Assembly: GCA_029582155.1 (NCBI GenBank)
Contig: CM055899.1
Coordinates: 58,693,349-58,757,348, forward strand
Source: Panopea generosa
Lineage: Eukaryota; Mollusca; Bivalvia; Adapedonta; Hiatellidae
DNA length: 64,000 nt
Direction: 5' to 3'
In this document: in pieces, positions 2,575 to 44,100 of the stretch
Layout: each line of letters begins with the position of its first letter
Position numbering within the stretch: position 1 is the stretch's first letter
Notes under the pieces: model-generated
Told to the model about the DNA's origin: nothing
The model's input: only the letters and a program-made list of their open reading frames with translations
The model's database searches: none
Translations under genes and position numbers: made by a program

Positions 2575-3220
2575 ACCTTCCACCCCAGCCCTCACCGCCA
2601 CATATATTTATTCTAATGTTAAAACAAATTTTACTCTTAGCTTTTAGTCATTAGCTAACAATGTACATTCAGATCTTGTAGTCAGATCAGCTATACATTG
2701 TTTACTTGCCAGTCAGTCAATTTTAAATAGGAATGGTCTCCAAACAGGACGCATGCAAGAAATAATAATAATAAAACATGAACGAGCTTATGATGAAAGA
2801 ATTTAAGTTTATAGGGTTAAATGTCAACTGTATACTGCATATAAATCCAGCTGACATAGTATAAATGCACAAAATCTCAAAACATGTACCTGTATATTCA
2901 AACACAATTTGTCTTTCACTCAGTGAGGTCATGCCTCTATCTTCAATGTGTGTCATTGAACTATATATTAACCTTCAGCTGCTAGTTAACTGCTAATGGT
3001 AGTTGTGAAATACTGGTAATTCTGACAGAAAACATGCTGGTATATCCACTGAGATGACATTCTCTTTGACAGATGGCGTAATCAGCTGTAAATTACACAT
3101 TATCACTTGTAAACCAACGAGAACTGTTTTTATTTGTTTTCTTGGTTATAATATGATAACTTGGAAGACGAGATTTATTAAACATTGATTTAAAATGGTT
3201 TAAAATTCTTTTATTTTCAG

Positions 3221-9200: not shown

Positions 9201-12200
9201 TCAAAATGTGTATGTTACAAAGTACGGGGGAGATTGACGTTATTTGTGCGACGTCAAACTGACATTCAAATAAAAGTCTTTTTTTTTTCGAAGTATGAAC
9301 CGCTGTGCAAAACACATTTATTGTGGTACTGAACCCACTTCTGGTACATGACACGATACTATGATGACTCTTAGATCCTAACCACAGAATGTACACTCCG
9401 TCACATGGCCCGGAGGTAATGAAAAGCACTTTTCACAAAGATCTGTCTTGAATCCCAGGAAAACTAAACATGATTTCGGTCGTCCAGATCGCTGATGGTC
9501 AGTTACTTTTGTCTCCCAGTTGGAAACCCATCTGTACAACCAACAGATAAGACTCCAGGATATGCCTTCTGTTGTGTGAAATAAACTTCAGAGTTTCATG
9601 TGGGGTCATATTACACCCAACACAAAATTTTACCATGCCCCAAATTACCACTCTTGGCGTGACGTTGTTTAATTTCTTTACTATTCAAATTCACACTTGT
9701 TACTTTAAAAGTGCGCATAATATTCAAATGTTTATTGATAACGTCAAATTTTTAAATGACATTCGTACATGATCTGAAATTACATCCACTGTTATTTCAT
9801 AACAATTGGCACAATATTGAGGCAGTTGTGTGCTTTTCAAGGCCATATTTTTTTTTAAAATTGCGTCTAATTTCTAAGTCTCCCGTACTTCCAAATTCAC
9901 GTTACTATGGTGCCTTTTGCATGAACTTAACAATACTGAAAGTTGATTTGATGTTTTATGACAATAGAAGATGTGCCCATCTATCCATTGATACCATTGG
10001 TTTGCATGTAACGCCCTAAATACAAAAATGACAGAGCCGTCCTATTACTTTTGGGAAGTAATGTTCCATGGTAACCATCGTTACGATTGGTAATGATATC
10101 AAGTTGTTTTTCTCTCTCCATTTGTTACAGGGTAGAAATGTTGTTGTATTCTATGGCTCACAAACAGGGACAGGGGAGGAGTTTGCTGGACGTCTAGCCA
10201 AGGACTGTGCCGGCTATGGTATGAAGGGCATGGTTGCCGACCCAGAGGAATGTGAAATGGTAAGCATTTGTGAGATTGAGTGTAACAGTTGAAATTCTCA
10301 TTCTCTGTAACCCATATACACACTGTATTACCAGCGTTACTGATGGAAAACAACTTTCCTGATCAACAGACATGTCACCGCAGCGTGGTCTAGTTGTAGA
10401 GTGTAATCGCACATGTGGAAGGTCAGGTGTTGATCCCCGGTCAGGTCATACCAAAGACTTGAAAAATGGTACTAGAAGCTTCCATGTTTAGCACTCAGCA
10501 TTTAGAGGATAGTGTTTTAGATCTGGTAGACCATGTGTCAGTATAATGTGACTGGGTGGGGTATCAAAACCATGTGTACAGCATGATACTCCAGTGTGGT
10601 AGCACTCAATATACTGTCTCAACAAATAGACACTACAATATAACTGAACAACTGTTGAAAGCATGTTAAACACCACACATCAACAACATCAACAGAGAGT
10701 AATAAATTGTCTGTCAGGTTAAGATAAGATATTTGAATACAGTTAATAAGTAATAGTCCTGAAAATGCCATCTTGGTTAGTTTCAACTTCATTGTCCAAG
10801 GTCAGATTGGACATTGGCAATATAGTGTGATATAGCATCTAAAATTTTTCATGATGCATGATAAAAATGTAAATCCCAACTGTGCATGTAACTGAAGTTA
10901 TTGCAAGTTAATGGGTTTTTTTTTCATGTTCTCAGATACAATTTATGAACAGAATTTTGGTTTTGGTTTACCCTGACCTTACTTGACAGTCTTTTGCCAA
11001 AAAGATCAGGCCTGGTTAGCTCAGTTGGTTGCCCGTCGGACTGTCAAACAAGGGGTCATGTAATAAAATCCACACCTGTCCACTCATCTGTGATGATTGA
11101 TATACTACTTAGTTGCGTCTCAATATCATTCTTTAACTGTTGATTCAAGTGGGAAGGCTATCAGTTACTTGAGGTGATTGGTGTACTTGAGTACTGGTTA
11201 ACCTTCCAGGATCTCAGGAAAGAGTGGTTAGGCTAACTGATTGTCTGCTAGCCCTTGACGGCTTAAAATTAGCTAAATATTCTAACAAACACACAAATTT
11301 TGCAAAGTAATTACTGGTAAAATCCCTTGTACAAGCAAGGCCGTGTATATAACACAACTGTATGCCGCCACAACACTGTCACATGCATCCTAGAGATAAT
11401 ATTGTTCACGGACAGTAATCCTGCTTAATTAACAGTCTTGTGTTCCAGAAAACAAACTCCGCACGGAACACGACAGCTAAATTATGTAATCTTACTTAAG
11501 ACTGATAACATGATGGTATTTGGTAACATACTACTTTTGATGTTGTAGATTAGATGATATTTTTATTTGTATAAGGTTAAAATAGGAATATGCCTACCCA
11601 AGTTTTTATTTAGCCTTCTGTTTCACCAACATATGCTTAAATACTTAAAAACTTAAATCTAAAAAAAGCAGCCAGGTGATCATGATTTTGGTTCTAGTAA
11701 AACTGCATATGGTTTTATAGATATTGGTTATTAAATAGGTAAATAACCAGTCAAAACTTAGGTAAGTTTTAAAGTATTGAAATAAAATGTTATCTTAATT
11801 ATATACTTGTGATTTAACTTTTTGTCTTGCTTATTTCTTATATCATGACATTTTTCACTTTTCTTCTAAAAGGGAATTTATCATTGTTTTTCAAAATTTT
11901 AAAATTTGTTAAAAACATTTTTTTCTATATATCATGCCTTTATAAAAATTATACGCACTGACACCCATATCATCAAAAGGATATCTATTTAAACATGCCA
12001 AAGTAATACATGTATATCAAAAAGTGATATCCTAAATTGGGCTATGTTCCCAGGTAAGACTAATATATATTTCCCATTCAAAATTGCAACATATTTTGTG
12101 ATGTATTAAATGAGTAACATGATATCGTTTTGATTTCAATATGATCCATTATACATGTTTACACAGAGTTAAAATCTTAGAAAGAGTCAGAATGACGATG

Positions 12201-15200
12201 CAAAGGTTATAGCGTCAAACAATATTTAAGTGCTGTCTATTTTTAGAATGGGGATTTCGTTTCAAGTTTACCACTCCAATTCAAATATTGATTTTGTCAC
12301 GTTATGGTGGATTTGACATACGAAACCATTCAGATTTTATTTATTAATGATAATGAGGTACTTTTTATCCATTTTAATAATTGTTTTTTTTTTTTAAGAC
12401 ATTCAGCATTTTTTAAGACATTGAGCATTTTTTCCTGATATACTCCCTTTAAAATAGCTTGATGAGTCTTGAAAATTAAATTGGGCATGAAAAATGTTTT
12501 AAAACCTCGGGGCCAGGTCATCTGAAAAATATATCACTGATTCACGTGTCATGGAAGATGGAATTTTACTCCATTGGGAAAACCTGTATCTTTTATTAGC
12601 AGAAATCCTTTTCTTAGGTGAAGTGAAATAAATGATGGCGTTTTAAAATTTCAGGAGGATTTATCCAGATTGTCAGAGATAGAGAATGGCATGGCTATAT
12701 TCTGTATGGCCACGTACGGTGAGGGCGATCCTACAGATAACGCACAAGAGATGTACGAGTGGCTGCAGAACGGAGATGTCGAACTCTCAGGGATGAAATT
12801 TGCTGTAAGTAGCCATTGTCATATTGTATGTGGAACTCTCAGGGATGAAATTTGCTGTAAGTAGCCATTGTCATATTGTATATGAAACTCTCAGGGATGA
12901 AATTTGCTGTAAGTAGCCATTGTCATATTGTATGTGGAACTCGCAGGGATGAAATTTGCTGTAAGTAGCCATTGTCATATTGTGTGTGGAAGTCGCTGGG
13001 ATGAAATTTGCTGTAAGTAGCCATTGTAATATAATTGTGTATGAAACTTGCACGAATGAAATTTGCTGTAAGTAGCCTTTGTAATATCGTGTGTGGAACT
13101 CGCAGGAATAAAATTTGCTGTAAGTAACCATTGTAATATTGTGTCTGGTACTCGCAGGGATGAAATTTGCTGTAAGTAGCCATTGTAATATTGTGTGTGG
13201 AACTGACAGGAATGAAATTTGGTGTTAGAAGCCATTTTAGTATTGTGTGTGGAACTCGCAGGAATAAAATTTGCTGTAAGTAGCCATTGTAATATTGTGT
13301 CTGGTACTCGCAGGGATGAAATTTGCTGTAAGTAGCCATTGTAATATAATTGTGTGTGGAACTCGCAGGGATAAAATTTGCTGTAAGTAACCATTGTAAT
13401 ATTGTGTGTGGAACTCTCAGGTATGAAATTTGCTGTAAGTAGCCATTGTAATATTGTGTGTGGAAGTCGCAGGGATGAAATTTGCTGTAAGTAGCCATTG
13501 TAGTATTGTGTGTGGAACTTGCAGGGATGAAATTTGCTGTAAGTAGCCTTTGTAATATTGTGTGTGGAACATGCAGGGATGAAATTTGCTGTAAGTAGCC
13601 ATTGTAATATTGTGTGTGGAACATGCAGGGATGAAATTTGCTGTAAGTAGCCATTGTAATATTGTGTGTGGAACTCGCAGGGATAAAATTTGCTGTAAGT
13701 AACCATTGTAATATTGTGTGTGGAACTCTCAGGTATGAAATTTGCTGTAAGTAGCCATTGTAATATTGTGTGTGGAAGTCGCAGGGATGAAATTTGCTGT
13801 AAGTAGCCATTGTAATATTGTGTGTGGAACTCGCAGGAATGAAATTTGCTGTAAGTAGCCATTGATTGTGTGTGGAACTCGCAGGGATGAAATTTGCTGT
13901 AAGTAGCCATTGTTATATTGTGTTTGGAACTCGCAGGGATGAAATTTGTTGTAAGTTGCCATTGTAATATTGTGTGTAGAACTCGCAGGGATGAAATTTG
14001 TTGTAAGTAGCCATTGTAATATAATTGTGTGTGGAACTTGCAGGAATGAAATTTGCTGTAAGTAGCCATTGTAATATTGTGTGTGGAACTAACAGGAATG
14101 CAATTTGCTGTAAGTAGCCATTGTAATATTTTGTGTGGAACTCGCAGGGATGAAATTTGCTGTAAGTAGCCATTGTAATATTATGTGAGGAACTTGCAGG
14201 AATAAAATTTGCTGTAATGTCTGTTTTTAATTAATGTGTGTTAAACCTTCTACAGGTGTTTGGTCTTGGGAACAAAACATATGAACACTACAATGCTATG
14301 GGCATATATGTGGACAAGAGACTTGAAGAACTGGGGGCTGAGAGAGTTTTTGAGGTTGGACTTGGTGACGATGATGGAAAGTAAGTATACAGCATATAAA
14401 TATAGAAGAATAATATTAGATCAATTATTTTATACTACGGGTAAATCATTTTTACTCGATTGCAAGGAAAGCTCAGACTGACAGAGCTTATATTAATCAC
14501 TCTTGAGTCTGCTTCATATAAGGTAAAACCAGCACTGAGTTTGTTTTTTTTGAGAAGCATCAGTAGATCAAGCTGGGGATTGAACCCACAACCTCTAGTA
14601 TGAGGGGCTGATACGATTTCCACTACACTATGGCTCCCCTTTAATGAAAATAACTGATCTAGCCTAGAAGTGTTTCTCTTGTTCATTTTGTAATTATTCG
14701 TGAGACGGTGCTCTCTGAAAATTTTCTGTTTGGTATGCAATTAAAAAATGATGTCTTATTCTTCTTTGGATAACTTATATCTGTGATTCATGTAGACTTT
14801 GTATTTTTTTTTTTATAAAAAAATATTCATGTTACATCTGTAGTGAAACATGTTCTTACAACCTAGTCGGATCACACTCAAAAGTATTCCTGGCTAAAAC
14901 TAGCACTAAGCCTTATGTAGTATGACATATTGCATGTCTCTAAGGAGCCTTTTAAAGATATTTTTTTATTTTGTGTCTCCTGAGACTGTAGATTGGATAT
15001 GGAAATAACAAAAAAGGTGACAGACAGACAGACAGACAGACGGACGGACGGACTGGAATTGGTGGTTAGAGATGAATGACAATGAGACGCAATGAGACAC
15101 AATATCATATATCAATCATAATGGAGATGGTGGCCTAGCAGAGATTTGAGCTTTGTCGCGCAACTCAAGCTAAGCAGGCTCAGTAGTGTATATTGGAAAT

Positions 15201-18200
15201 ATATATTAAAGAAGAAGATGATATGAGGATGTAGACGTATAAGTTTTTTTGTTGTGGTTGACATCTGTATATCAATGATCAAAGTATTGAAAAGATGGAA
15301 GTAGTATAAAACAGTAAGTGTCTTATTTTGAACCACATGTATTTCAGTATTGAGGAAGACTTTGTGACATGGAGAGAAAAGTTTTGGCCGGCAGTTTGTG
15401 AACATTTTGGAGTGGAAGCTACAGGGGATCAAGTCAAGTAAGTGATAGTCTTTTTAGCTCACCAGGACAAAGTCAAAGGAGAGCTATTGCCATGACCCCG
15501 GCGTCGTCATCATCGGCATTATCATCTGTAGACACCCAGGTTAAACTTTTGCGTTTAAGTTTAAGATATCTATGCAACCACTCATTGGATGTGAATGAAA
15601 CTTCGCATGTGTGTTCACCATCATCAATGGAACACACAGAGACAAGAACCATAACTCTGGGTTGCATTTTGGCACAGTTACGGCCTTTTTTGGACTTGGA
15701 CACCTAGGGTCAAGCTTTGTTGTCTTCTGACAACTCTTGTAAAAAAAACATAGCCAAATTTTAACAAATCTTTACAATTACAGTAAACCTCTGAAGACCC
15801 CAGGGGTTGATGCATTTATTAAAATGGAGGCATTTATTTGGTCTGGAACACATAGCCAGTAATGAGGCATCTAATGAACATTAAAATGTTTAAACCAAAT
15901 TTGAAATGTACATGCAATTTATTTGTCAGAATGTCAAGTCATTTTATTTTTATAAAAATCACACAAATGGTTGAGGTTGTTTATATAGGGGGTAAATGTA
16001 TATGGTATTGCTAAAAATGTATTTGTTTTAATCTTTATCAGCAATAGATATGGCCATTATAAATTAATTGCTAGATTATCATCCAAAATTTTTCGTAAAA
16101 ACGGGGAGGGCTGGAGGATTTTATTTTTTTAATTTTATTTTTAAAATTTTTATGTTTTTTTTCTACTAAAAAATAAATAAATATTTTTTTTGTTTCATGA
16201 AAATAAAAAGGGTCGGGGCAGCATGAAAATCAGGGGGCGGGCAGGGATGATAATCTAGTAATTAATTTATTATGGCCTATGTAATCTTTTTTTTTATTCA
16301 ATTGTATACTCTCATATTTAGACCAGTTTTTGCAACTTTAATAAGAAGATACTATTTACAAGACTAATCATTGAAGTTCGTAAAATGATGGAAGTGAAAT
16401 TCTAAATGAATTTAAAGACTTATTTTTTAAACTTGCACAAAGAAAGTTTAAGTGAAATGGGCCCTGTGCAACTTTCCTTTGTTGATTCTTTAGTGTTATG
16501 CCAAACATAATCATCTGTATTTTCAGCATACGTCAGTAATTGCAGTTCAGGATTATTTTCTTTCACATATTCTTCAGTGTTATATCATGATGTATATATC
16601 AACAATAGATCATATTTACTATATTTTCAGTATACGTCAGTACACACTTACAGTTCATGATGATTTACCCACTGACAAAGCCTTCAGAGGAGAGATAACC
16701 CGCTTAAGATCTTTTGACAATCAAAGACCGTAAGTGCTATACCACTTTGTTATGGAATGACAAAGTGGTGTTGAATGTTACCCCTGTTTTTTTGTCCATC
16801 TGGTAAAAAATTACTTTCAGGACCCAGTTGTTCAAAGCTCTGTCAGCTTAACCACCTATTAAGTGAAATTTTGTAATTTCAATATTTTTTGTATTTAATG
16901 AATTTATAGCAAATTAAATGCATTTTTAGAAACAAAATGGCATATATTTATAATTTTCAATAAAACAATAACCTAAAACGATGTAAATCTTAAAATAACA
17001 TGATTTGAAAATTTCACTTTACTCAGGGTTAAGCTAACCAAGCTGGGAACCACTAGGCCCAGATCAGTAACGTCTGAAGGAGTGTATGTATTTAAATGAT
17101 ATTTTGTGGCTGTATAATTATAAAATACAGGTCAAGTTCAACATGTGTCTTGTCAATTTTTACAGAAATTTTGGTAAAAAATTTGTTTCTGAAGCTTTGG
17201 GCATTCGTATAGACACATTTCTCTCATTAAAATTGCCATCAATCAAATGTTGTGATCTCTGAAAATATTAAGATCCTTTGGCAATCAAAAACTGAACTAT
17301 TGAACCTGTTTTTTTAGCAAAAATGCTAAAATCAAATATTGTGATGTCTGAAAATAATTAAGTAGGCATCAGCTAAGGTTTTATTCAGCTTGAGAGCTTG
17401 TATTAAAGCATTTCAGATGCCCCTAAACAAGATATACAATATGTACGATACTGTAGTATGATGTTAAGTTTATTATTATATCAAATTGATTGAATGCTGC
17501 CCCTTTAGCACGTCTGACTCAATCTAGGGGTTGTGAGTTCCAACCGCCGCCCGGCTACAGTCTCCGTGATAATTGATATACGACATTGTGTCTCATTGTC
17601 ATTCATCTCTCAGTGCTGATCTATTAAAGTAGGAAAGTTATCAGTTACTTGAGGAGATGAGGTGTGCTCGAGTACTGGTTAACCTTCCAGGATCCCAGGA
17701 AACAGTGGTTAGGTTAACTGATCATCTGTTAGCCCTCGATGGCATAAAAATGACGCTAAATATTTAGTATTCAATTGAATGCTGCTCATATACACTATTT
17801 GATCAAGGAGTGTTCTTAATTGCATTGGAGCTGATTTTTTTAATTGAATAATCTGACATTTCAGATGATTGATAAACGATCAAATTCGCAATCAATTTAA
17901 TGTAGGTTTTCTGTATATAATAACCTGAAATGGTTGCAGGAGTTTGACCTTTGTATCTTTCCCTGGAAAGGGATAGAATTATTCATCTCTGTCTTTAAAA
18001 GTCATGCTTGTAAGTTGGCTTAGGTGAGTTTGATTAGCTGCCTGACTTAATTATCACCCAATCAACGTTCAGTTTAGTATCAGAAAGAACAACAACTCTT
18101 AAACAGTAATTACATGTATAATTCATTGATGAACAAAATTTTATTGTTGGTGATTGTGCCAGTGGCTCTTGATAAGAATTTGATGGTTGATCAGAACAGT

Positions 18201-21200
18201 TCTGCTGGCATCCTCAGTGAAACAATATAATTGTATACACATTTCAGGCCATATGATGCTAAGAATCCATACCTGGCCCCAGTTTCAGTGAACAGGGAAC
18301 TACACAAGGGTGGGGACAGATCCTGTATGCATATAGAGTTTGATATATCTGGATCTAAAATAAGGTAAAGTATACAATCATGTACTTTATTACATTTTAT
18401 TAGCTGTATTTCTATGATAGACTTTTCTGGATCAGGTTAGCTCAGTCGGTAGAGAGTTTGACTATCAATCTGCGGGTTGTGAGTTTGAATCATGGCTGGG
18501 CCAAAGTCTCTGTGATGACTGATATACGTCATTGCTTCTTATTGTCATTTGTCTCTCACCTCTCATTCAAGTGGGAAAATTATCATTAACATGCAGAGAT
18601 ATATATTGATATGTATTTGAGTATCGTTTAACTTTGGGGGTGGGGGATGTAATGCAGTGATATACGGTAATACCTGTAATTAAAGCTTTTTAAAGCTCTG
18701 AACTGCATTATAATTACTGATTCTCATTTCTCACCTTGTACAAATTATAGAAATAAATGTTGACATGACATCAGATATTATAAGGTTATTTTACAGTGTT
18801 TTTTACAATATGGGAATATATTGTATGAGTAAGTATTGTATTTGAAACCATATTGGACGAGAAGGCATACACACAGAGTACAGTTTTCTCCACAATATGT
18901 ACGAGTACAATATATTCTCATATTGTACAAAACACTGTAAAATGATCTTTTTATTCTATACCTCAATCTGAGAGAAATTTATTAGAAGAGTAAATAAAAA
19001 TCAAGTAAATCAACTCAAAGTTCAAAGAGGCAGACAAAGGAAGTTGCAGTGACAAATATTCAAATTTTCTCAACGTCATCATCATGCGAAACATTTTGCC
19101 GGTTGTATGTTTTTATAATTGAAATTTCTTCTAAGTTTATTTCCTTCTTATTTTAAGTCACCATCTTTAATTTTGAACTGTATAGATTAATAGGCAAAGA
19201 ATATTTCTAGTTTTTGTTTTATGCAAACAAAGGCCAGAAAAGAATGTGATAAATAAGTATACAAAAGATTTGAATATGGAATATATATTATAATATAATG
19301 TTCAGATATGAGTCAGGTGATCACGTGGCAGTGTATCCTAGAAATGACACAGATCTAGTTGACGCCATTGGTAAACGTCTCAACGTGGATCTGGACACCG
19401 TGATCACACTTACCAATGTTGACGGTGAGTACATTCCTAACTTAATATATTTCCCGCAAATGCTCTATAAAACATGTTTTGCCTTTTCATATCTGATCTG
19501 GTTACACGCACTAGCGAAACTGACTCCCGTTTTTTGTAAATATTCTTTCTGTAATCATATGAATATTTAGTGGAATATTTTATTGTCCATTATCATGTGT
19601 CACATGGCATGATAATCTACAGTTTTATTTCAGGGTCTATCCCAGTATCTGATGTCTTCAGAATCAGGTCTGTTATACCGTTATAGTGTAAAAGTATGGA
19701 ATTCCCTGCCTGTCCCACAATTCATAGCACTCTAATGTGGTTAATAATTTATCATGTTAATAATAATATTATATACAGTCAAACCTATGTTTAACTTAGT
19801 GGTTACCTCCTTTAGTTTATACTAATTTATTTTAACTCGATTGCGGTGAAAGCTTAGAGCTTATATGAACCGCTCTCGATTCCGCTTCCTGGGTAGAACC
19901 AATACTGAGTGTTGTTTAATGAGCAGCATCGGGTTTAGCTGGGGATGGAACCTGCAACCTCTGGCATGAGCGGCCAACACTTACACTACCACCCCCGCTT
20001 TTAAGCAACCACTTGTGTTAAACAACCACATTTTCTATTTACCATTTTTAGAAATTTACATACCGTTTTAATCGCCTGGTATAAAGCAGCCACTTACCTA
20101 CCCAAGTAGGTCATTTTTGCTGTATCCCTTGACTTGCTGCTAAAGGTAGGTTTGATTGTACATGTATTCACCATCTTTGTCTACAGAGGAGGCCAGTAAG
20201 AAGCATCCATTCCCAAACCCGTGTTCATACAGAACTGCTTTACTGCACTACCTGGACATTACCAGCTGCCCACGGACACATATACTTCGTGAGCTGGCCG
20301 AGTACGCTACAGAAGAGAAAGATAAAGAATTCCTGCTGAAACTTACCTCACCAACACCAGAAGGAAAGGTATGAAGAGATTGATTGATTGAATATTTAAG
20401 GTCATTTTTATGCCATCGAGGGCTTACATATGATCAGTTAAGCTAACTACTGTTTCTGGAATCTTGAAAGATTAACCAGCACTTTAGCACACTCTTAGTA
20501 TGTTTTAAACTGGTCATAAAAAAATGCACAGGTAATTAATTTCTTGTACATAAAATGTATGTCATATGTAATTATCAATGTTTTGAAATTTTTTGACATT
20601 GGAAAAATAGTTTTGAATAAAACATGCAGTTTTAAGCAAATTTCAACCATTTAAATTTTGCTTTCAATAGAACTTCTACAGTTCTAAACACAAATAGTTT
20701 AAATGTTTAATTTGTAAATGCATTTTGACGCAGTGGGGATGGTTGTATGTTTTGTTATTAAAATTTGTCGTTTGGCCCGTTTGCAATTTATTCATTATTT
20801 ATACTACAAATTAATGTTTTGAACATACACCTTACACTTTGACACTGTTAAACACAATAAAATGTAATTTTTTCATGTTTCTAGGCCCTGTACAGTGACT
20901 GGATTATTAAATGTCACCGTAACATACTGGCCATCTTGGAGGATCTGCCATCCTTGATGCCGTCAATGGACCACATATGTGAACTGTTGCCACGGTTACA
21001 GGCTAGATACTATTCAATCTCATCATCACCAAAGGTAAAGTTTGACCTCTTATATCAGAAGTTCTTGATTGAAAATGTTGCGATTATGTATAAACCAGGC
21101 CTTGTGTACATGACTGGTGGCAGTAGAACTGTTTGCTTTTGCCTTTTCTAACACATTATAGGTCGATTTAGATAAGCTGACACCGCAGCGTTGTCTAGTG

Positions 21201-24200
21201 GTACAGCATCTGCCTCACATGTGGAAGGTTGTGAGTTCAATCCTCGGCTGGGTCATTCCAAATACTTAAAAAAATTGTACTAGAAGCTTCCTCGCTTGCC
21301 CTCAACATTTAGGGGATAGTTCCCTATGTCGGTAGTAGCACTCAGAATGCTATCTCAAGTAGACACCGCTGTAATATCCCTGAAAAATTGGTGGAAGTGA
21401 TGCTAAACACAATACAACAAAAACATATGTATTATGTGATGTAGTTGTTGAAAACTGTTTGAAAAGCTGATTGATAGCTAATTCTTTGTAAAGTCAATAT
21501 TTTCATTGATAAGCCAGTTTGCGTTGACTGTAGTATAGGAGTTACGCTCGTCATTTGCACAGTCTGCTGACAAATTTTGTGATTGCTTTTTCTCAGCAAC
21601 CGTTGGCTGGAATTCATTGAAACTCAACAAGTGTCTGGTACCTAGCCTAGTTGTGCATATTGTCGGCATATTGCGCACAAATAGTTTTTCAATGAGTTAT
21701 GGCCCTTTGAATTTTTCATACATATTTTGTGGTCGCTATTTCTGGGCAACCATTACCTGGAAGTCAGAGAAACATGACAAGAGTGATCGGTACCAAGCCT
21801 AGTTGTACTAATCGTCGGCATGTTGTGCGAGAGTAATTTTTCAATGATTTATGGTCCTTTGAATTTTCCAGACATTTTTTTGTGGTCGCTGTTTTTCGGC
21901 AATCATTGACTGGTATTCAGTGACACTTCATAAAATAATTGGTACCAAGCCTAGTGCTTATCGTCAGCATGTTGCATCCGAATAATTTTTCAATGAGTTA
22001 TGACCCTTTGAATTTTTCAGACATTTTTTTTTTTGGTTGCTGTTTCTCGGTAACCATTGGCTGGAATTCAGTGACACTTTACAATCGAGCATCAAACACC
22101 CACATTTGTTACTCTAATTGGTTCACTGTGTCAAAGCAGGCAACAAAAAGATGCTATAACTGTGTCAGGGCACCATCTGGGGGTATTCATCACCTCAGTG
22201 ATATTTCTAATTATGCAAGATATTGAAGTAATTGCATGGTTTTATTTGATCTCATGCAGGATATAAAACAAAAAGGTCTAAATAACAAAAAAGATGATAA
22301 AAATTCATGAAAGTATGTTTTGTAAAAGACAATTTAATTAATATACATACATCATATTGACTGGTTTCAGGAACATGCAACCAGTATCAGTATCACTGCT
22401 GTGTTAGTTGAATACCAGACCAAGACTGACAGAACAGTGAAGGGCGTGGCAACCAACTGGTTGGCCGGCATGAAACCAGAAAATGGAACCAAATGGACTG
22501 TCCCAGTTTATGTCAGGTCAGTACCATTCAACAATGGAATTCCACGTAAATAAGATGTGTTTAATTATTTGACATTCATTGCTGCAACTTTGGCATTTGA
22601 AGTATTCCTTGGTACATTGTAGGATCAGTACTAAGCATATGTAGATAAAGTGTCTAGCAAGGATATCATACATAGCCATGGTGGATGATCAATCTCACTG
22701 AACACAGCCTTTTTTTCTTCATATCTGAAGTGACCAAGATAAGGCATATTCTGCAGATCTACCTTTAAATTCACAGGTAGATTTACAGAGTAAGACAAAT
22801 ATAATTAAAAAATTGAGGCAAATGGTTACTGCAACCTTATGATGTAACACGAAATTCACACTGATAAATCATTGAAATCTCACTCAAAAAAATTTCGCGG
22901 GTCCTCCATGACCAACTGGTCTAAGGAACCAGATCACCATCATTTTATCTCACTGCTGAGGTCATAGGTTTGAATTAAACTCAGCCAAAAATAATTTATG
23001 TGAGAAAATTGGCCAGTTACTTGTTGAATGGCAGTGGTTTTACTCAGTTCATGTGGTCTGACCTGGTTAGCTCAGTTAGTATTCTGACTACCAATCCATG
23101 TGTCACGAGTTTGAACTCTCACCTGGCCGTAGTCTCCGTGATGATTGATATACATTACATCTCATTGTCATTTTGTTTCTCAAATGATATTTTTAATAAA
23201 AACATTTTTTTCTAAACTGATGTTTAACAAAGATGTAAATATTTTTTTAAATGTGTTGTTTCATATTGTAACACTTGCAAATTAATATTTCCACACGATA
23301 TACATCCACGAGTGTAAAGACTGGTTTGATATTTGAGCAAGAGCGACATGTCAGCAATGCAACGTGCCCCTTTAAAGGAAAGATTATTGATATGTTTTAT
23401 TCCAGGAAGTCTCAGTTCCGATTGCCATTTAAGACGACTATGCCTGTAATAATGATTGGACCAGGTACCGGATTGGCTCCATTCAGAGGATTTCTTCAAG
23501 AGAGACATTATCTGAAATCAGAAGGTAAACCTCCAACCAGTGCTTACACGTTACTTTTACACGTTAATGTGTGACTATAAGTATTTGATTGAGATTTCTT
23601 GATAATGTTTCATTCCATGTTTAAATTACAAATTTCTAACAGTATATTAGGTAATGTTTAAAATTTTCAGGTTTTGTTAATATCAGCTTAATTGCTAAAA
23701 TTTACATGAATTGTGGCAATTTTCATAATTTTAAATGTTTTTGAAATCATGAAGCAATAGGTAGTGAAAAGACGCACAACATTTGCTGTTTCATTGACCC
23801 AAGATTATAAAGATATAAGTTATAATTGACTGGTATAGCATTGCTAGATGAACGAAATAAAAGACATGGTGGTGTTGATCAAGAGCATTCACAATATAAA
23901 CATAAGAAATGAACTTTATTTGTTGAACATAGAGGAGACTTGAACTTTAAATGTAACCAGCAAAGTTTATATGAACATAATTCAGGGTTCATTACTTTGC
24001 ATGTGTGTGTATGGGTGTGGGGGCAAGCATGTTAGATGTGTGTGTAGGTTGAAGGGGCACATGCAAGATGTGTGTAGGTGGGGGGGGGGGGCATGTAAGA
24101 TGTGTGTGTTGGGGGGGGGGGGGCATGTAAGATGTGTGGGTAAGTGGGAGGGGGCACATGCAAGATGCGTGTAGGTGGGTGGGGGGACATGTAAGATGTG

Positions 24201-26882
24201 TGTGTTGGGGGTGGGGGGGGGGGGTACATGCAAGATGTGTGTAAGTGTTGGGGGGGGGGGACATGTAAGATGTGTGGGTAAGTCGGAGGGGGCACATGCA
24301 AGATGCGTGTAGGTTGGGTGGGGGACATGTAAGATGTGTGGGTAAGTGGCAGGGGGCACATGCAAGATGTGTGTAGGTGGGGGGGGGGGGGACATGTAAG
24401 ATGTGTGAGTAAGTGGGAGGGGGCACATGCAAGATGCATGTAGGTTGGGTGGGGGACATGTAAGATGTGTGGGTAAGTGGCAGGGGGCACATGCAAGATG
24501 CATGTTGGTGGGGGTGTTGGGGGGGGGGGGGGCACATGCAAGATGTGTGTAGGTGGGGGGGGGACATGTAAGATGTGTGGGTAAGTGGGAGGGGGCACAT
24601 GCAAGATGCGTGTAGGTGGGTGGTGGGCCCATGAAAGATGTGTTAGTGTGGGTGGATAGGGCACATGTAAGATGTGTTAGTGTGGGTGGATAGGGCACAT
24701 GAAAGATGTGTTGGTGTGGGTGGATAGGGCACATGTAAGATGTGTTAGTGTGGGTGGATAGGGCACATGAAAGATGTGTTAGTGTGGGTGGATAGGGCAC
24801 ATGTAAGATCATTCCTTAAAAATATTTCTAGACATTTTATAGTAACACATGTTTAGATAGAATCAACAAATTATGTGAAGTGTGTTGTCCAGTGGTAGAG
24901 CACTGAACCCAGGGTTGTGTGTTCGATCCTCTCCCATGGCTGCATGTGATGTCCATGAGCAAGGCAAAGAAGTTTGTAATCATATGAACCCTAGTGAAAT
25001 TGGATCCCGGCCACCAAATACTAGTGAATGTGAACAAATCTAATTGCAGGTAAACCTGTAGGTGATACGGTGTTGTATTTTGGCTGCCGTTACAAAGCTC
25101 AGGACTTCATCTATGAAGATGAACTGGACGGTTACTTGAAAGATGAGACTTTAACTCACCTTCATGTGGCATTCTCAAGGGACCAGAAAGAGAAGGTTTA
25201 CGTCCAACACCTTCTGAAACAGAACAAGACCGAGATCTGGAAATACCTGGAAAGTGGGGGACATATTTATGTGTGCGGGTATGTGATAGGCTCTGTACTT
25301 CATTACATGCAGGAAAGACTTTGGGTTTTATACATAGATGTGACATTGTGCCATTCATTGGAAACTTATATGTTGAATACTACCAGTCTAATATTGTATC
25401 TCCACTGCACTGCACTCTACTGTTTATGGTATTGTACCACATTGTATTGTATTTTAATGTATGGTATCATATTGAATTATTGTATAGTTTTGTATTGTAT
25501 TGTATTTTTACCTGTACATATTGTTGTAGGTTGAATATCATTCTGCTAATACACAATATGATAATGAATGGACTGACCATTCCTAGAACTATCTTCCAAG
25601 TGCAAAAGCAGAAAGCTATAAGTATCATTTAAGTCTAGTACATATATCATTCCACAGGACAAAGCTACCACGATGTCCAACATGATATTCTGAGTTCTGC
25701 TGAAACAGTTTATGTAATTTCTTGAATAGGAAAATTACATCAATCAGCAGCCTTGCTATTGATTAGCCAATCAAACTATGACAAAAATGTGATAATCTGA
25801 AACTTCATAACAGTAGAACCAAAATAATCTGTTTATGATTAATGCAGTAGTGGTCTAGTGGTTGAGTGGATGCCTCACATGTGAAAGTTCATGGATTTGA
25901 TCCTTGTGCCAAATCATACTAATGACTTAAAAAATGATACAAGACGCTTCCTTGCTTGGGTCTCAGCATTTAAAGGATAGTTTAAGGTCTGGTCTGCCCA
26001 GTATCCGTATAATGTGACTGGATGAGGTATCATGCAATGTGTCAGCATGATACTACGATGTGGCTGTGCTTAGAATACTGTTCTCAAGTAGAAACTGTTG
26101 CAAAATTACTGAAAAATTGTTGAAAGCGACACTAAACATCACATAACAACCCACATCTATTTAGAATTTTTGTAATAGTCATATGTAAAACCTGAAATGT
26201 CATGTACATGTATTGTTATGTGTATTAAAACATTACTAAGGATGACACACCATAAGCCAGTTTTGATTCAGTGTGTTTTTTTTTGCCATTTTTATAGCCA
26301 TTATTGGGCCATATTCCCAATGGCAAATAGTATCTTTTTTTCCCAATTGAGCGGTAAAAATTCCCAATTGAAAGCTTCAATAATTTTAAATTGAAACTTG
26401 CCATAATTCCTTGATAAAATAAACAAAGATTTCCCCATTCTGAATTGAGTATGACATTGATTCTTTAATTAAATGCCCAGAAAAGCAAGTGTACACATTT
26501 TTATGAAGTTACAAATATTTAATGAAAAAGTTTTCCCAATGTTAATGAAAACAGTTCCAAAAAAAAACACTGGTTAACCACCCAGTGGATCCCAGGAATA
26601 ATGCTAAGGTGCGCTGAAAATATGTTGGAAAAAAAAAAGAGGCATAAATTTCGATACAAATGAAAATTTTTGGTATATTTACTAATTTTTTATGTATAAA
26701 ATGATAATATAGTAACAATGATAATTTCTTATTGCAGAGATGCGAGAAACATGGCCCGCGATGTGCACGATACATTGCTTAACCTTATCCAAGAATACGG
26801 GGAAATGGATTCATCCAAGGCTGCTGACTACATTAAAAAATTACAGAACAAGGGACGCTACTCTTGCGATGTTTGGAGTTAG
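3221..26882 (+). CDS. POR: NADPH–cytochrome P450 reductase, 14 exons, N-terminal anchor exon missing
   Basis: Transfers electrons from NADPH through FAD and FMN to microsomal P450s and haem oxygenase at the ER membrane. Join: 3221..3278, 10131..10259, 12655..12804, 14256..14380, 15348..15437, 16631..16729, 18248..18364, 19306..19424, 20187..20368, 20885..21034, 22371..22516, 23406..23524, 25050..25278, 26738..26882. All junctions are GT–AG, all phases agree, and the product is 618 residues against about 680 in the family. Seen in order: FMN site ([39 protein letters not shown]); FAD domain ([27 protein letters not shown]); NADPH site ([42 protein letters not shown]). The catalytic Ser, Cys and Asp and the terminal aromatic shield Trp (DVWS) are all present. 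The first exon begins in codon phase needing two upstream bases, so the ~60-residue membrane anchor is outside the window. Nothing suggests inactivation. Confidence 0.97.
3722..4012. mobile_element. Two overlapping SINE fragments (families C and E)
   Basis: 3722–3925 matches the + strand family-C body (tRNA-like head, 'caaaatggtactagaa', 'catgatactc'). About 3905–4012 matches family E in reverse ('actgagtgttgtt', 'gcggccaacactctat'). Confidence 0.5.
4095..4785. repeat. ~60-bp tandem repeat, about 11 copies
   Basis: The unit contains 'tatgtactaaacacaggt' followed by 'cagtgacaggtacatgcta' and 'gggtgtgactgactg'. It recurs every 60–61 bp inside the first visible POR intron. Units differ by a few substitutions and small indels. 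Confidence 0.9.
5484..5782 (-). mobile_element. tRNA-derived SINE, family C (near complete)
   Basis: Read on the − strand it has a tRNA-like head (gcggcgtggtctagtgatag), a B-box-like 'gggttcaatccccggcc', the body motif 'aaaatggtactagaagc', then 'aatgtgactgggtggggta' and a tail ending in a 'taaacaccat'-like motif. Same family at 10377, 21180 and 25848. Confidence 0.8.
5932..6262. repeat. ~128-bp tandem repeat, about 2.5 copies
   Basis: Units contain 'tattaattaggtgatctgga', 'ttgattggctga', 'cggacctcta' and 'ggtcaagttcaacaatgga'. Degenerate copies follow one another in the first visible POR intron. Confidence 0.75.
6440..6945. repeat. Dispersed repeat family, copy 1 of 3
   Basis: Shares long collinear blocks ('caaggaattatatagagaag', 'tgcagaatgaaattgtcatc', 'catttagtcaggagttgcaa') with 44925–45230 and more weakly with 35690–36425. 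No coding capacity seen and the ends are not defined. Confidence 0.65.
7661..7805. repeat. 22-bp tandem repeat, about 6 copies
   Basis: The unit 'cagtgatttataccagaaaa' plus 'ct' is repeated with few changes. Confidence 0.9.
9043..10055 (-). mobile_element. Degenerate mariner-like element, copy 1
   Basis: The left terminus 'tacgaggtatgtctcaaaag' and the right terminus ending in 'cctattacttttggga' are inverted, and closely match the ~1-kb element at 43475–44504. On the − strand, stop-ridden frames around 9330–9570 resemble the N-terminal DNA-binding part of mariner transposases (a W-V-S/F pattern, then D-L-D-D-R or S-G-R-P-like residues). No intact transposase. It lies in the POR intron and ends only 75 bp before the exon at 10131. 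Confidence 0.7.
10131..10259 (+). CDS. POR: POR exon: FMN phosphate-binding loop
   Basis: 43 codons, phase 0 at both ends, acceptor tttgttacag and donor gtaagc. Contains the flavodoxin loop [19 protein letters not shown] that holds the FMN phosphate. Confidence 0.97.
10377..10690 (+). mobile_element. tRNA-derived SINE, family C
   Basis: The head gcagcgtggtctagttgtag plus the B-box-like 'gtgttgatccccggtca' is tRNA-like. The body and tail match 5484–5782 in the opposite orientation. It follows the POR exon by about 120 bp. Confidence 0.8.
11010..11285 (+). mobile_element. tRNA-derived SINE, family B
   Basis: The head 'tggttagctcagttggt' is a canonical A-box-like start, followed by body motifs 'tgatgattgatatac', 'gagtactggttaaccttcca', 'ggatctcaggaaagagtggt' and the tail 'agctaaatatt'. 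Other copies: 17495, 18430, 23053 (+), and 20385, 31950, 46296 (−). Confidence 0.8.
12655..12804 (+). CDS. POR: POR exon: FMN ring-binding loop [13 protein letters not shown]
   Basis: 50 codons, phase 0 to 0. Contains [13 protein letters not shown] and ends LSGMKFA. Its last ~24 bp and donor gtaagt are the template of the 28-copy array that follows. Confidence 0.97.
12781..14216. repeat. 52-bp tandem array seeded by the POR exon/5' splice site, 28 copies
   Basis: Each unit has about 25 bp equal to the exon's 3' end (aactctcagggatgaaattt then gct) followed by the donor gtaagtagcc and about 20 bp of intron ending in tattgtgtgtg. I counted 28 junction copies including the real one at 12804/12805. 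The units next to the exon are the most like it ('aactctcagg'); distal ones read 'aactcgcagg'. At least two units lost the consensus (around 13221 and the last at 14215). The array fills the intron to about 40 bp before the next acceptor. Confidence 0.97.
14256..14380 (+). CDS. POR: POR exon: FMN domain [14 protein letters not shown]
   Basis: 41 codons plus two bases; acceptor aaccttctacag, donor gtaagt. Carries [16 protein letters not shown] and the acidic GLGDDDG that closes the FMN pocket. Confidence 0.97.
14443..14642 (-). mobile_element. SINE-like repeat, family E
   Basis: On the − strand there is a tRNA-like head near 14640 (agccatagtgtagtggaaat) with a B-box-like 'gggttcaatccccagct'. 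The body 'ctcagtgctggtttta', also seen at 19830–20005, then runs to the terminus. Confidence 0.6.
15348..15437 (+). CDS. POR: POR exon: end of FMN domain
   Basis: Completes N, then [20 protein letters not shown] and GVEATGDQV; acceptor catgtatttcag, donor gtaagt. Matches the end of the FMN domain (ExDFxxWRExFW...[11 protein letters not shown]). Confidence 0.96.
15455..15740 (+). repeat. Dispersed repeat with 'gctcacc...gagctattgccatg' head
   Basis: Starts just after the POR donor with 'tttttagctcaccaggacaa', a type of dispersed repeat I associate with bivalve introns. It gives a chance open frame on both strands. No second copy in this window, so the assignment rests on recall. Confidence 0.35.
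16050..16200. repeat. Dispersed repeat, partner of 32228–32325
   Basis: Contains 'ccattataaattaattgcta' and 'gggagggctggaggatttta'. The same blocks occur reverse-complemented at 32228–32325, so this is an interspersed repeat. Confidence 0.6.
16631..16729 (+). CDS. POR: POR exon: connecting region start
   Basis: Reads (N)[13 protein letters not shown] then [17 protein letters not shown]; acceptor atattttcag, donor gtaagt. Equivalent to the SIRQYEL...GEMGRLKSYENQ-type segment entering the FAD/connecting domain. Confidence 0.95.
17495..17771 (+). mobile_element. tRNA-derived SINE, family B
   Basis: The head is degraded, but the B-box-like 'gggttgtgagttccaac' and the body 'cagtctccgtgataattgat', 'actggttaaccttccaggat' and 'gacgctaaatattta' match 11010–11285. 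Confidence 0.75.
18248..18364 (+). CDS. POR: POR exon: connecting domain
   Basis: Reads (P)[17 protein letters not shown], then [14 protein letters not shown](R); acceptor acatttcag, donor gtaaag. The pattern DAKNP-L--V--NR-L ... H-E-DIS-SKIRYE is diagnostic of POR. Confidence 0.96.
18430..18632 (+). mobile_element. tRNA-derived SINE, family B, 3'-truncated
   Basis: The head 'ggttagctcagtcggtagag' and the B-box-like 'gtgagtttgaatcatgg' are the best tRNA-like promoter elements in this family here. The body decays after about 18632. Confidence 0.8.
18786..18948. mobile_element. Palindromic MITE-like element (~160 bp)
   Basis: Left arm 'ttattttacagtgtttttta' and 'caatatgggaatatattgta' pair with the right arm 'tacaatatattctcatattg' and 'aaaacactgtaaaatgatc'. 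A loop of about 80 bp lies between. Confidence 0.7.
19306..19424 (+). CDS. POR: POR exon: FAD-domain strand [11 protein letters not shown]
   Basis: Reads (R)[14 protein letters not shown], then [16 protein letters not shown]; acceptor taatgttcag, donor gtgagt. Confidence 0.96.
19774..20160. mobile_element. ACAGTCAAACC palindromic MITE interrupted by a SINE
   Basis: Left end 'tacagtcaaacctatg' at 19774 and right end 'aggtaggtttgattgta' ending 20160 match the termini of the 182-bp elements at 35282–35463 and 59962–60143. A family-E SINE (about 19830–20002, − strand) sits inside. The right end stops 26 bp before the POR exon at 20187. Confidence 0.7.
20187..20368 (+). CDS. POR: POR exon: connecting/FAD domain
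   Basis: Reads (E)[38 protein letters not shown] and [12 protein letters not shown]; acceptor ttgtctacag, donor gtatga. Matches the KKHPFPCPTSYRTAL--YLDIT--PRT family signature. Confidence 0.96.
20385..20500 (-). mobile_element. SINE family B, 3' part
   Basis: The reverse-strand tail of family B ('gaatatttaaggtcattttt', 'atcagttaagctaact', 'gattaaccagcac') lies just after the POR donor at 20369. Confidence 0.65.
20885..21034 (+). CDS. POR: POR exon: FAD-binding RYYSISSS
   Basis: 50 codons, phase 0 to 0; acceptor tgtttctag, donor gtaaag. Contains [17 protein letters not shown], which contacts FAD and carries the catalytic Ser. Confidence 0.97.
21180..21423 (+). mobile_element. tRNA-derived SINE, family C
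   Basis: The head 'gcagcgttgtctagtggtac' and B-box-like 'gtgagttcaatcctcggc' are followed by the family body; the tail is 'gatgctaaacacaatacaac'. Confidence 0.8.
21540..22095. repeat. ~155-bp degenerate tandem repeat, 3–4 copies
   Basis: Units recur with 'ggtaccaagcctagt', 'tttttcaatgagttatgg', 'ccctttgaatttttc', 'tttgtggtcgct' and a 'ggaattcagtgacactt'-like end. Located in a POR intron. Confidence 0.8.
22371..22516 (+). CDS. POR: POR exon: FAD domain GVATNWL
   Basis: Reads [31 protein letters not shown] and VPVYV(R); acceptor ctggtttcag, donor gtcagt. GVATNWL is the FAD pyrophosphate loop. Confidence 0.96.
22905..23185 (+). mobile_element. Adjacent SINE fragments, families A then B
   Basis: 22905–23050 shows the family-A head ('gaccaactggtctaaggaac', 'gaggtcataggtttgaat'). 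About 23053–23185 is the family-B head and body ('cctggttagctcagttagta', 'gtctccgtgatgattgat'). Confidence 0.65.
23406..23524 (+). CDS. POR: POR exon: NADPH-binding [12 protein letters not shown]
   Basis: Reads (R)[20 protein letters not shown], then [19 protein letters not shown]; acceptor ttattccag, donor gtaaac. This is the pyrophosphate loop of the NADPH domain. Confidence 0.97.
23990..24810. repeat. G-rich minisatellite in POR intron
   Basis: About 35–75-bp units combine 'cacatgcaagatg', 'catgtaagatgtgtg' and G runs of up to 13. From about 24600 a regular 45-bp variant 'gtgtgggtggatagggcaca' plus 'tgaaagatgtgtta' takes over. The + strand, which is the POR transcript sense, is the G-rich one. 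The long P/H/T/C open frames on the opposite strand are a by-product. Confidence 0.95.
24872..24995 (+). mobile_element. tRNA-derived SINE, family D
   Basis: The head 'gtgttgtccagtggtagagc' and B-box-like 'tgtgttcgatcctctccc' are followed by 'gtgatgtccatgagcaaggc'. The same arrangement lies reversed at 52040–52195. It falls about 55 bp before a POR acceptor. Confidence 0.65.
25050..25278 (+). CDS. POR: POR exon: NADPH domain core
   Basis: Reads (G)[19 protein letters not shown], then [26 protein letters not shown] and GGHIYVC(G); acceptor ctaattgcag, donor gtatgt. FSR...K...Y are the residues that grip the NADP 2'-phosphate, and C is the catalytic Cys. Confidence 0.97.
25848..26152 (+). mobile_element. 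tRNA-derived SINE, family C
   Basis: The head 'gcagtagtggtctagtggtt', body 'aaaaaatgatacaagacgct' and 'taatgtgactggatgaggta', and tail 'cgacactaaacatcaca' match the family. Confidence 0.75.
26738..26882 (+). CDS. POR: POR terminal exon and stop codon
   Basis: Reads (G)[20 protein letters not shown] ... [20 protein letters not shown] then TAG at 26880–26882; acceptor cttattgcag. The C-terminal Trp-Ser matches the canonical end in which Trp stacks on FAD. Confidence 0.97.
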
Positions 26883-41100: not shown

Positions 41101-44100
41101 TCTTTGAGTCTGACTATTTTCTGCTTGTCTGTTATACAACCCTTCAATTCCCGATCATTTCTAATAAACATCCCACTGGCACGGCAGATCTTTCGTAACT
41201 GTTTCAGATGAGGAGCCTCATTGCCTGATGTGGATTTCTGGAATGGGAAATATAATTTTCATATGTAATGGACCCTGCAGAATAAAGAACTTTAAAAACA
41301 TCCATTGACACATTTTGTAAAAATAAAAAAATTGTTTGGACTAATGAAAAAGCATCAACACTGGGAATTGTTTTCACTAACGATAAAATTAAAAACAAAG
41401 ACTTAAACTACGATCCAAAAATAAAACAATTTCAAAACTGTCTTGATAACTGGAATAAACATAAATTGTCGATATTAGGTAAAATCACAGTAATAAAAAC
41501 ATTTGCATTACCAAAACCAATCTTCCCATTAACAGTGCTTGAATTACCTAACATAAACACTATAAACTTAATCAAAAATAAAATGTTCGAATTTCTGTGG
41601 GAGGGGAAACCAGACAAAGTTAAGCGTAAAACTATTATACAAAATATTGAAAACGGTGGTATGAAAATGATAGATATAGAACTTTTTATAAATTCAATTA
41701 AAGCAAGTTGGGTTAAACGATTAACAGATATAAACAATAAAGGTGCATGGAAGAATATATACGTGTCATCAATTGAAAAATATGGTGGAAACTTCATCTT
41801 TGAGTATAACTTTAATTGCAAAGATGGTAATTTTATGTTTAACGAAATGCCCTTTTTATGTAACTTAATAGAATCATGGTCAAAAATTAATTTCAAAACT
41901 AATATTGAAGATGTTAATATAGAAAAACAATATATATGGAAAATTCTTTCATTAAAAGTAAACGCAGTTTGTTATTTTACAAATCATGATTACAGCTAGG
42001 AATCAAAACAATAAATGATATATATGATTCTAGACATTAGACGTTTTATACTTTTGAATGATTAAAACAATTATACAATATTAGTAATTCAGAATTTCTC
42101 AATTATTTTACTATTACTCGAAGCATACCAAAAAAATGAAAACACATTAATAAAACAGAGAATATAATAGAAACTGAAAAAACACCGTTATTACATCAAG
42201 TGAGGAAATGTAATTCTCCTAATAGAATGCTATATAATATGTAAATTCAGTTAATTAATAACGATAATGAAATAAAACCTCATCTAAAATGGGAAGAAAT
42301 ATTTAACAACCTTGACTGGAAAATCATTCACTGTCTACCTTTCAAAAGTACCCTAGACACAAAACTAAGATCATTTCAATACAAATACATTATGAGAATT
42401 TTACCTACTAACAAGTTTTTATCTAAATGTAAAATAGTTAATTCAAGTCTATGTGAATTTTGTGAGAGATATCCAGAAACTTTAGAACATTTATTTTGGA
42501 AATGTCACTGTGTAAGAGCCTTATGGACTCCGGTCCATAACTTTTGTATTTCAAACAATCAACCTTTCAATATCTGTTTTCAAAATATATTGTTCGGGTT
42601 ATATAACTCTTCATCAGTTGACTTACTTAACTGTATAATATTACTTGCTAAATATTTCATATTTAAGAATAAATACACGAAGACAGTTCCCAGTATTGAA
42701 GCATTCATACCATATCTACAAAAAAAGAAGCAAATAGAAAAACTTATTGCAATAAACAAAAACAAACTTAGGTCACATGAAAATAAATGGGGAAACATGT
42801 AAACTATAATTACGAAAACTATACTGCATACAGCTTCTCATCTTCTCAACTGAAAATTTCTACTTGCCTTATCTGTGCTCTTTCTCTACTCTTTTTTATT
42901 TTCTTTTTATATTCACCCTTCAAATATTACTTGTAAGACATTGTATGCATGTTATGTTATCTAAAGGTATCATGTAATGTGTTAAAAAAATTATATAGCT
43001 TGTATTGATACATGAACAGTTTTTGTATAACATTGTATTATGTCTTACATGGAAAAAAAGATATTCATCAAAAAGAATAAAGAACTTAACGATTTCTGAA
43101 GCTGGGAATATAATTCTCATATGTCATGGACCCTGTAGAATAAAGAACTCAAGGATTTCTAAAGCTGGGAATAGAATTCTCATATGTCATGGACCCTGTA
43201 GAATAAAGAACTTCATGGACCCTGTAGAATAAAGAACTTAAGGATTTCTAAAGATTGAAATATAATTTACATATGTCATGGTCCGGGTAATATACAAGAT
43301 ACCTGCTTTATGTCTATTCATCACTGCACAAATGAATTAATTATAAATTTGAGTCCCGCTCGCTCCAAAAACTTTATGCGTGAAAGTTTCCAGTTACTTG
43401 CGGAAGGATGGTGGTTCTACTCAGTCTTACCCAGTCTGAGGGTTTCGTCTTCCAGTAAAACTGGATATGCCATATACGAGGTATGTCCCAAAAGTAATAA
43501 GACGACCTTGTCATTTTAGTATTAAGGGAGTTACATGCAAACTAATGGTATTGATGGATGATCGACATATCTTCTATTGTCATTAAACATCAAATCAACA
43601 TTCAGTCATCGCTAAGTTCATGCAAAAGGCACCATAGTAACGCCGAGTTTGGAATGTATGGGGGACTTTAAAATTAGACGCCATTTAAAAAAAATATATT
43701 GCCTTGGAAAGCAAACTTCCTCAATATTGTGCCAAATGTTATGAAATAACAGTGGACGTTATTTCAGACCATGTGCGAATGTCATTTAAAAATTCGACAT
43801 TATCGATAAACATTTGAATATTGTGCGCACTTTTAAAATAACAAGTTTGAATTTGATTAGTAAAGAAATTGGACGACATCATGCCTAGAGTGGAAATTTG
43901 GAGTATGGTAAAATTTTGTGTTGGGTGTAATATGACCCCACAGGATACTCTGAAGTTTATTTTACATAATTCTTAAAAAGAATGCATATCCTGGAGTCTT
44001 ATCTATTGGTGGTACAAACGGGTTTCCAATGGTGAGACGAAAGTAACAAACTATCAGCGATCTGGACGACCACATCATATGCGGTTTTCCTGGAATTCAA

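Follow-up and report, generated by a model that had tools for sequence, protein, structure and literature searches.

What is known of the spliceosome's choice between equal 5' splice sites comes mainly from engineered constructs and a small number of human loci. In amphioxus, the so-called mirages (in Adh3, the globins BflGb6 and BflGb9, TnC and PGBD5) are described as minisatellite-like tandem duplications of the exon-intron boundary in which many repeats keep splice signals, and they are reported to leave regular splicing undisturbed (PMC3087553, PMC3902484). Intron 18 of human ABCA7 is reported to hold a 25-bp variable number tandem repeat (VNTR) that includes the exon 18 donor, with 23.7 copies in the reference and alleles from ~12 to ~427 (PMC5954066). 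In intron 7 of human F7, which carries several 37-bp repeats, the first repeat contains the real donor, and normally only the most upstream 5' splice site is said to be used, a choice put down to oriented scanning (PMC6627357). Human segmental duplications are also reported to have variable minisatellites at exon-intron boundaries, with tandem-repeat-driven intron change (PMC2812944). Here we analyze a 52-bp tandem array in the gene for NADPH-cytochrome P450 reductase (POR) of the bivalve Panopea generosa. The window, that is, the whole 64-kb stretch of DNA studied, is C6:58693349-58757348 of a 1.474-Gb assembly in 39 contigs. The array is very probably an exon-boundary minisatellite of the mirage kind that grew from an exon-intron duplication, has no shown function and leaves the upstream donor in use. 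The kind is already known from human and amphioxus genes. What appears to be new is the POR case itself, with 28 copies and ~26 predicted usable donors, and the fact that at least six further genes in a single genome hold such arrays. Among the matches listed in our literature searches, which covered titles and abstract openings and did not name POR, none described such an array in a mollusc.

The POR gene lies on the + strand, where peptides read as its exons are placed from ~10140 to 26879; exons 2 and 3 are those that were compared with known POR. The exon that we call exon 2 (12655-12804, from phmmer and translation) has 50 codons and ends in ELSGMKFA in phase 0. Exon 3 (14256-14380, from homology and translation) starts with VFGLGN and ends before AAA|GTAAGT, and the intron between them (12805-14255) is 1,451 bp long with GT...AG ends. 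The spliced exon 2 and exon 3 protein matched human POR (1b1c) with a phmmer E-value of 5e-47 over residues 3-92 of the 93-residue query, and the junction GMKFA|VFGLGN (12804/14256) is gapless in that alignment. A genome-wide protein search with the POR query matched exons 2 and 3 only (2 matches, 6 scored candidates).

Tandem Repeats Finder (TRF) called a repeat at 12777-14217 with a period of 52 bp, 27.6 copies and 90% matches; unit alignment and the match at the left edge place the array at 12776-14217 (+ strand). It takes up 1,413 of the 1,451 intron bases and consists of 27 full units followed by a partial 28th. The 26 steps between full units are mostly 52 bp (22 steps), with three of 55 bp and one of 48 bp. 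The word ATGT at 12776-12779, within the exon, recurs at 12828-12831, exactly 52 bp further on; it marks the left edge of the array and is likely the microhomology of the first duplication. Because the identity between copies begins at 12776, inside the exon, the unit contains ~29 nt of true coding exon, followed by the donor and the start of the intron. In unit 2, the exon part is identical to the real exon end at 28 of 29 positions. These observations confirm the view of a first-pass annotation of this DNA that the array spans, and derives from, the exon end and its donor, and the gapless alignment to 1b1c bears out the exon boundary on which that view depends. The same annotation named an independent copy of the repeat with no relationship to the exon as evidence that would count against it. 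A 22-mer of the unit (ATGAAATTTGCTGTAAGTAGCC, up to 3 mismatches) matched 27 times in the window, always within the array, and not once in 100 shuffles; a second unit pattern at the same tolerance matched 22 times, again only within the array. No independent copy was found in the window with these two patterns, nor elsewhere in the genome by one whole-genome DNA search in which very common words were skipped. The tail of the intron, when compared as a further degenerate unit, gave a shuffle p-value of 0.077.

The real 5' splice site, GCT|GTAAGT (12805-12810, + strand, placed by frame and homology), sits in the first repeat unit, and near-identical donors follow in the later ones. There are 27 decoy donor positions on the + strand between 12857 and 14219; 25 have an intact GTAAGT and 23 are identical to the real nine bases. 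Counting the real site, GTAAGT is kept at 26 of 28 positions and GCT|GTAAGT at 24 of 28. The two broken donors are those of unit 9 (GTTAGA, 13224-13229) and of the partial unit 28 (GTAATG, 14214-14219), both on the + strand. The earlier statement that most of the 28 copies keep a consensus donor therefore holds. Its companion, that every unit carries the exon end and the sequence after it, applies to most units but is too strong, because an exact GTAAGTAGCC is present in only 22 of 28. The POR exon ends in GCT, hence this is not an AG/GT site. The computed energy of the RNA duplex with the 5' end of U1 is -7.0 kcal/mol at 25 of the 28 donors, the real one included, and pairing is weaker at units 9, 23 and 28. 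The real donor and 24 of 27 decoys thus pair with equal energy, and donor 1 cannot be singled out by sequence strength alone. Six other POR donors have computed energies of -5.7 to -10.8, so the real donor is not unusually strong.

By homology, the normal POR protein requires donor 1. An in-frame TAG at 12862-12864 (+ strand) is reached from donor 3 or any later donor, and donor 2, which shifts the frame by 52 nt, leads to a TGA at 14282-14284 (+ strand) in exon 3. All 27 decoys thus lead to a stop, in the extension or in exon 3. The first-pass annotation had placed this stop by about 12864 for any later donor, which is correct for donors 3-28 but not for donor 2.

Some further features lie within the array. 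AATAAA starts 13 bases before the donor GT in units 7, 10 and 28 (13107, 13263 and 14201, + strand); the one at 14201 stands beside a broken donor with a T/G-rich stretch after it and, speculatively, could act as an intronic polyadenylation signal if not covered by U1. At unit columns 6-7 (12781-14189), 15 of 27 units read CG and five read TG, while the exon itself reads CTCTCAG; the TG units would fit CpG decay in a methylated gene body. An open frame of 401 codons crosses the array on the minus strand (12975-14180). We take it as a by-product of a repeat without stops in that direction, and not as a gene.

Comparison of the units points to past instability of the array, in the form of block duplications. 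Units 12 and 13 equal units 18 and 19, unit 14 differs from unit 20 at one base, unit 16 equals unit 17, and units 7-8 resemble units 10-11. The first-pass annotation had described the exon-proximal units as most like the exon and suggested growth outward from the junction. Aligned to unit 1, the first three decoys do differ little (1, 1 and 2 differences), whereas the remaining 23 full units average 5.2 differences (range 3-10), and the partial unit 28 is the most diverged (21 differences, ungapped). However, divergence shows no trend with position along the POR array (Spearman p = 0.61 aligned, p = 0.32 ungapped), and we rejected a monotonic gradient of outward growth on this ground. Nor was there a consistent gradient across three other arrays of this genome, those of ORC4, the neurobeachin/LRBA gene (NBEA/LRBA) and a TMC-like exon, where the first three decoys, set against the rest, are in that order more distant from unit 1 (7.3 v 4.9), about as distant (3.7 v 3.9) and less distant (2.3 v 4.0). 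The block copies in mid-array leave outward growth weakly supported, and ordinary minisatellite turnover accounts for the pattern better than does an orderly extension from the junction outward.

To look for similar arrays, we scanned the genome with six patterns, each of three consensus donors spaced as in an array, and with their reversed patterns as controls. Every pattern exceeded its control: GGTAAGT (11541 vs 8947), CAGGTAAGT (572 vs 244), AAGGTAAGT (1694 vs 474), CAGGTGAGT (1663 vs 324), CAGGTATGT (1771 vs 867) and AAGGTGAGT (394 vs 238). We rejected these figures as a count of mirages because the places are not independent and a dispersed 51-bp family fills much of some lists. This tandem family, found in many places, has consensus donors in either orientation (AAGGTAAGT on one strand and CAGGTGAGT on the other; for instance at 47250351-47251567, 51920890-51922063 and 58794087-58800199 of G000:C1) and so inflates genome-wide counts of donor arrays.

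From the listed places we drew a sample of 54 other donor-containing arrays. These were the first places listed, hence all on contigs C1-C3, with several members of dispersed families left out, as were 9 of the 17 arrays from the AAGGTGAGT search. For 25 of the 54, at least one upstream open reading frame (ORF) ending at the first donor was compared with Pfam or the PDB. The other 29 mostly had no 30-codon frame ending at the donor, or a frame that was array sequence; some frames of at least 30 codons from L020, L026, L029, L030, L034, L035, L039 and L053, and second frames of others, were left out. In six of the 25 arrays, a homology-supported exon has its end and donor repeated. These are ORC4 (L031; PDB E = 1.9e-7, with a Pfam match below the curated cut-off), NBEA/LRBA (L045; PDB E = 3.2e-9, a structure match with no Pfam match), an M1 peptidase (L046; Pfam E = 4.1e-7, above the cut-off), a cadherin (L054), an immunoglobulin (Ig) I-set domain (L060; E = 5.9e-10) and HECTD1 (L064; Pfam 1.2e-13, PDB 9.3e-13). 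The cadherin had no Pfam match; in the PDB it matched CELSR1 (7.7e-9 for the whole sequence, no single stretch passing) and cadherin 23 (6.4e-7, one passing stretch). A weakly supported array, with a TMC-like exon (L037, E = 0.069), is a probable seventh case. Six is a minimum, since homology searches with short exons often come up empty.

In these arrays, as in POR, the exon end closely resembles its second copy, with agreement at 45/48 positions in ORC4, 32/38 in NBEA/LRBA, 35/37 in the cadherin, 17/18 in HECTD1, 15/16 in the Ig array and 16/17 in the TMC-like one. In the M1 peptidase, 16 bases (TTAAATGAAGGTAAGT) occur seven times exactly, the real site included. The main spacings of these six or more ladders range from ~33 to 53 bp, their donors are GTAAGT, GTATGT or GTGAGT, and their effects on the reading frame differ. 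For instance, donors 2 and 3 of ORC4 would add 51 and 102 nt (17 and 34 codons) in frame without a stop. The remaining 18 arrays had upstream ORFs without a convincing match to Pfam or the PDB (L016, L017, L033, L036, L038, L041, L043, L044, L047, L049, L055, L056, L057, L059, L062, L063, L065 and L066); L047 had a structure match (E = 0.043) only over the whole sequence, with no single stretch matching. These frames may be exons of fast-evolving proteins, or no exons. As a control, ten antisense ORFs from the far flanks gave no match to Pfam, the only database used for them; eight further control ORFs were excluded as repeat sequence. In one of the unmatched arrays, L043 (G000:C3:39988500-39992500, minus strand; array at 2752-3166 in that orientation), a 34-bp unit is repeated 12 times, each with a donor, a pyrimidine tract, a TGCAG acceptor and a few bases before the next donor, so that it looks like a chain of complete mini-introns; its two upstream frames had no Pfam match.

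The POR array most likely arose as a side effect of repeat growth. The 4-bp word ATGT would have supplied both ends of a tandem duplication that copied 52 bp over the exon end and the start of the intron, and slippage or unequal exchange, with duplications of multi-unit blocks, would have enlarged the array to ~28 copies. The transcript would then offer some 26 near-equal donors, among which splicing most likely occurs at donor 1, the most upstream, as it alone closes the real exon; the analogies are human F7, with its use of the most upstream donor, and the amphioxus mirages, with their undisturbed splicing. If a later donor were used now and then, the product would have a frameshift or a stop and presumably end in nonsense-mediated decay. 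The array would be tolerated because the upstream donor wins, and is probably neutral. Several points weigh against this reading. Work cited in PMC5933811 is reported to favor the downstream one of two occupied 5' splice sites when they lie >40 nt apart. In ABCA7, misuse by one unit is reported to occur, unchanged by array length, and skipping of the next exon to rise with array length (PMC5954066), so that such arrays are not always harmless. In addition, we infer the use of donor 1 from sequence and analogy.

If misuse of the decoys were both costly and common, their donors should decay. The first-pass annotation expected strong selection against misuse, and none is visible: in POR, 2 of the 162 donor hexamer cells from 27 units, counting the real one, depart from the consensus, whereas the rate in the remainder of the unit is 0.057. 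Such retention would be expected if the decoys work, that is, if extra U1 small nuclear ribonucleoprotein (snRNP) bound along the array reinforces exon recognition, with the cut still made at donor 1, and selection keeps the decoys. U1 bound downstream of a donor is reported to be able to stimulate that donor (PMC5933811). In a comparison of 36 arrays, which did not include the Ig and HECTD1 arrays, mutation was lower in the donor hexamers than in other parts of the unit for all five verified boundary arrays tested and for the probable TMC-like one, and the donor-to-rest mutation ratio was lower in the verified five than in 30 others (one-sided p = 0.024; p = 0.041 with the TMC-like array added). 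However, a rank test within units on the same set was not significant (one-sided p = 0.12 for the verified five, 0.086 with the TMC-like array), and an earlier, smaller version, with the TMC-like array counted, had given p = 0.020 and became weaker once arrays were added. Pooled counts over six arrays (24/998 donor cells vs 419/6801 elsewhere), which included L047 without a homologue, are superseded by the 36-array comparison. A selected donor core in POR was also rejected, as a scan of the POR units finds no significant conserved block (p = 0.09-0.65). Finally, every array except POR was located through its intact donors, a bias that favors apparent retention. We see no selection in either direction, with a weak hint of donor retention, and consider working decoys in POR unlikely. 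The wider proposal, that donor arrays are widespread, POR among them, and that selection maintains their decoys as landing sites for U1 to the benefit of the upstream exon, is likewise doubtful; if true, long ladders of intact donors would be a working splicing element and not tolerated clutter.

The stops reached from every POR decoy could also suit a switch, in which later donors are used under regulation, giving POR mRNA with a stop and reducing the output of POR. A stop would be met in nearly any intronic extension, however, and the stop-free extensions in ORC4 mean that a stop is not common to all these arrays. We regard such a switch as highly improbable. We are equally skeptical of an assembly artefact, with copies over- or under-counted. 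Tandem arrays are error-prone, and the copy number, known from one assembly, may be off, but similar arrays occur in at least six other genes, and the units vary in length (48- and 55-bp variants) and by substitution, so this is not a collapsed identical stack.

As an exon-boundary minisatellite, the POR array and the at least six other ladders provide natural replicates for distinguishing an upstream-first from a downstream donor preference. Such arrays also bear on how introns grow from coding exons and may exchange sequence with them. Elsewhere in the window, a 63-bp repeat on the minus strand (49365-49816) falls within a long open frame (48970-50613), where it codes for a 21-residue repeat, for example KNYESDGSTGDTPLIRKQKKG. 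Open frames at 41286-42802 (+ strand) look like a putative broken reverse transcriptase end of a long interspersed nuclear element (LINE).

Like the amphioxus mirages, the POR unit spans the exon-intron boundary, as the near-identical exon part of unit 2 and the boundary set by homology indicate, and many of its repeats keep splice signals. The array is longer than those of the BflGb6 haplotypes, for which 6 and 3 repeats are reported against 28 in POR. Some amphioxus cases are described as copying the 3' splice site, whereas the POR array copies the donor. Length instability and, at Adh3, somatic instability are reported in amphioxus, whereas POR is represented by a single assembly. With F7 and ABCA7, POR shares a real donor in the first unit and near-identical donors in later units. 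The F7 repeats are given as 37 bp, compared with 52 bp in POR, and F7 intron 7 is said to have fewer copies. F7 is described as studied through a patient mutation, cellular models and minigenes. For ABCA7, RNA and population data are reported, whereas the present account of POR is one of sequence. The ABCA7 VNTR is described as starting at the donor GT, with exon sequence not stated in that description, whereas the POR units carry ~29 nt of exon. In the human segmental duplications, repeats are linked to new introns; in POR, repeats fill an intron.
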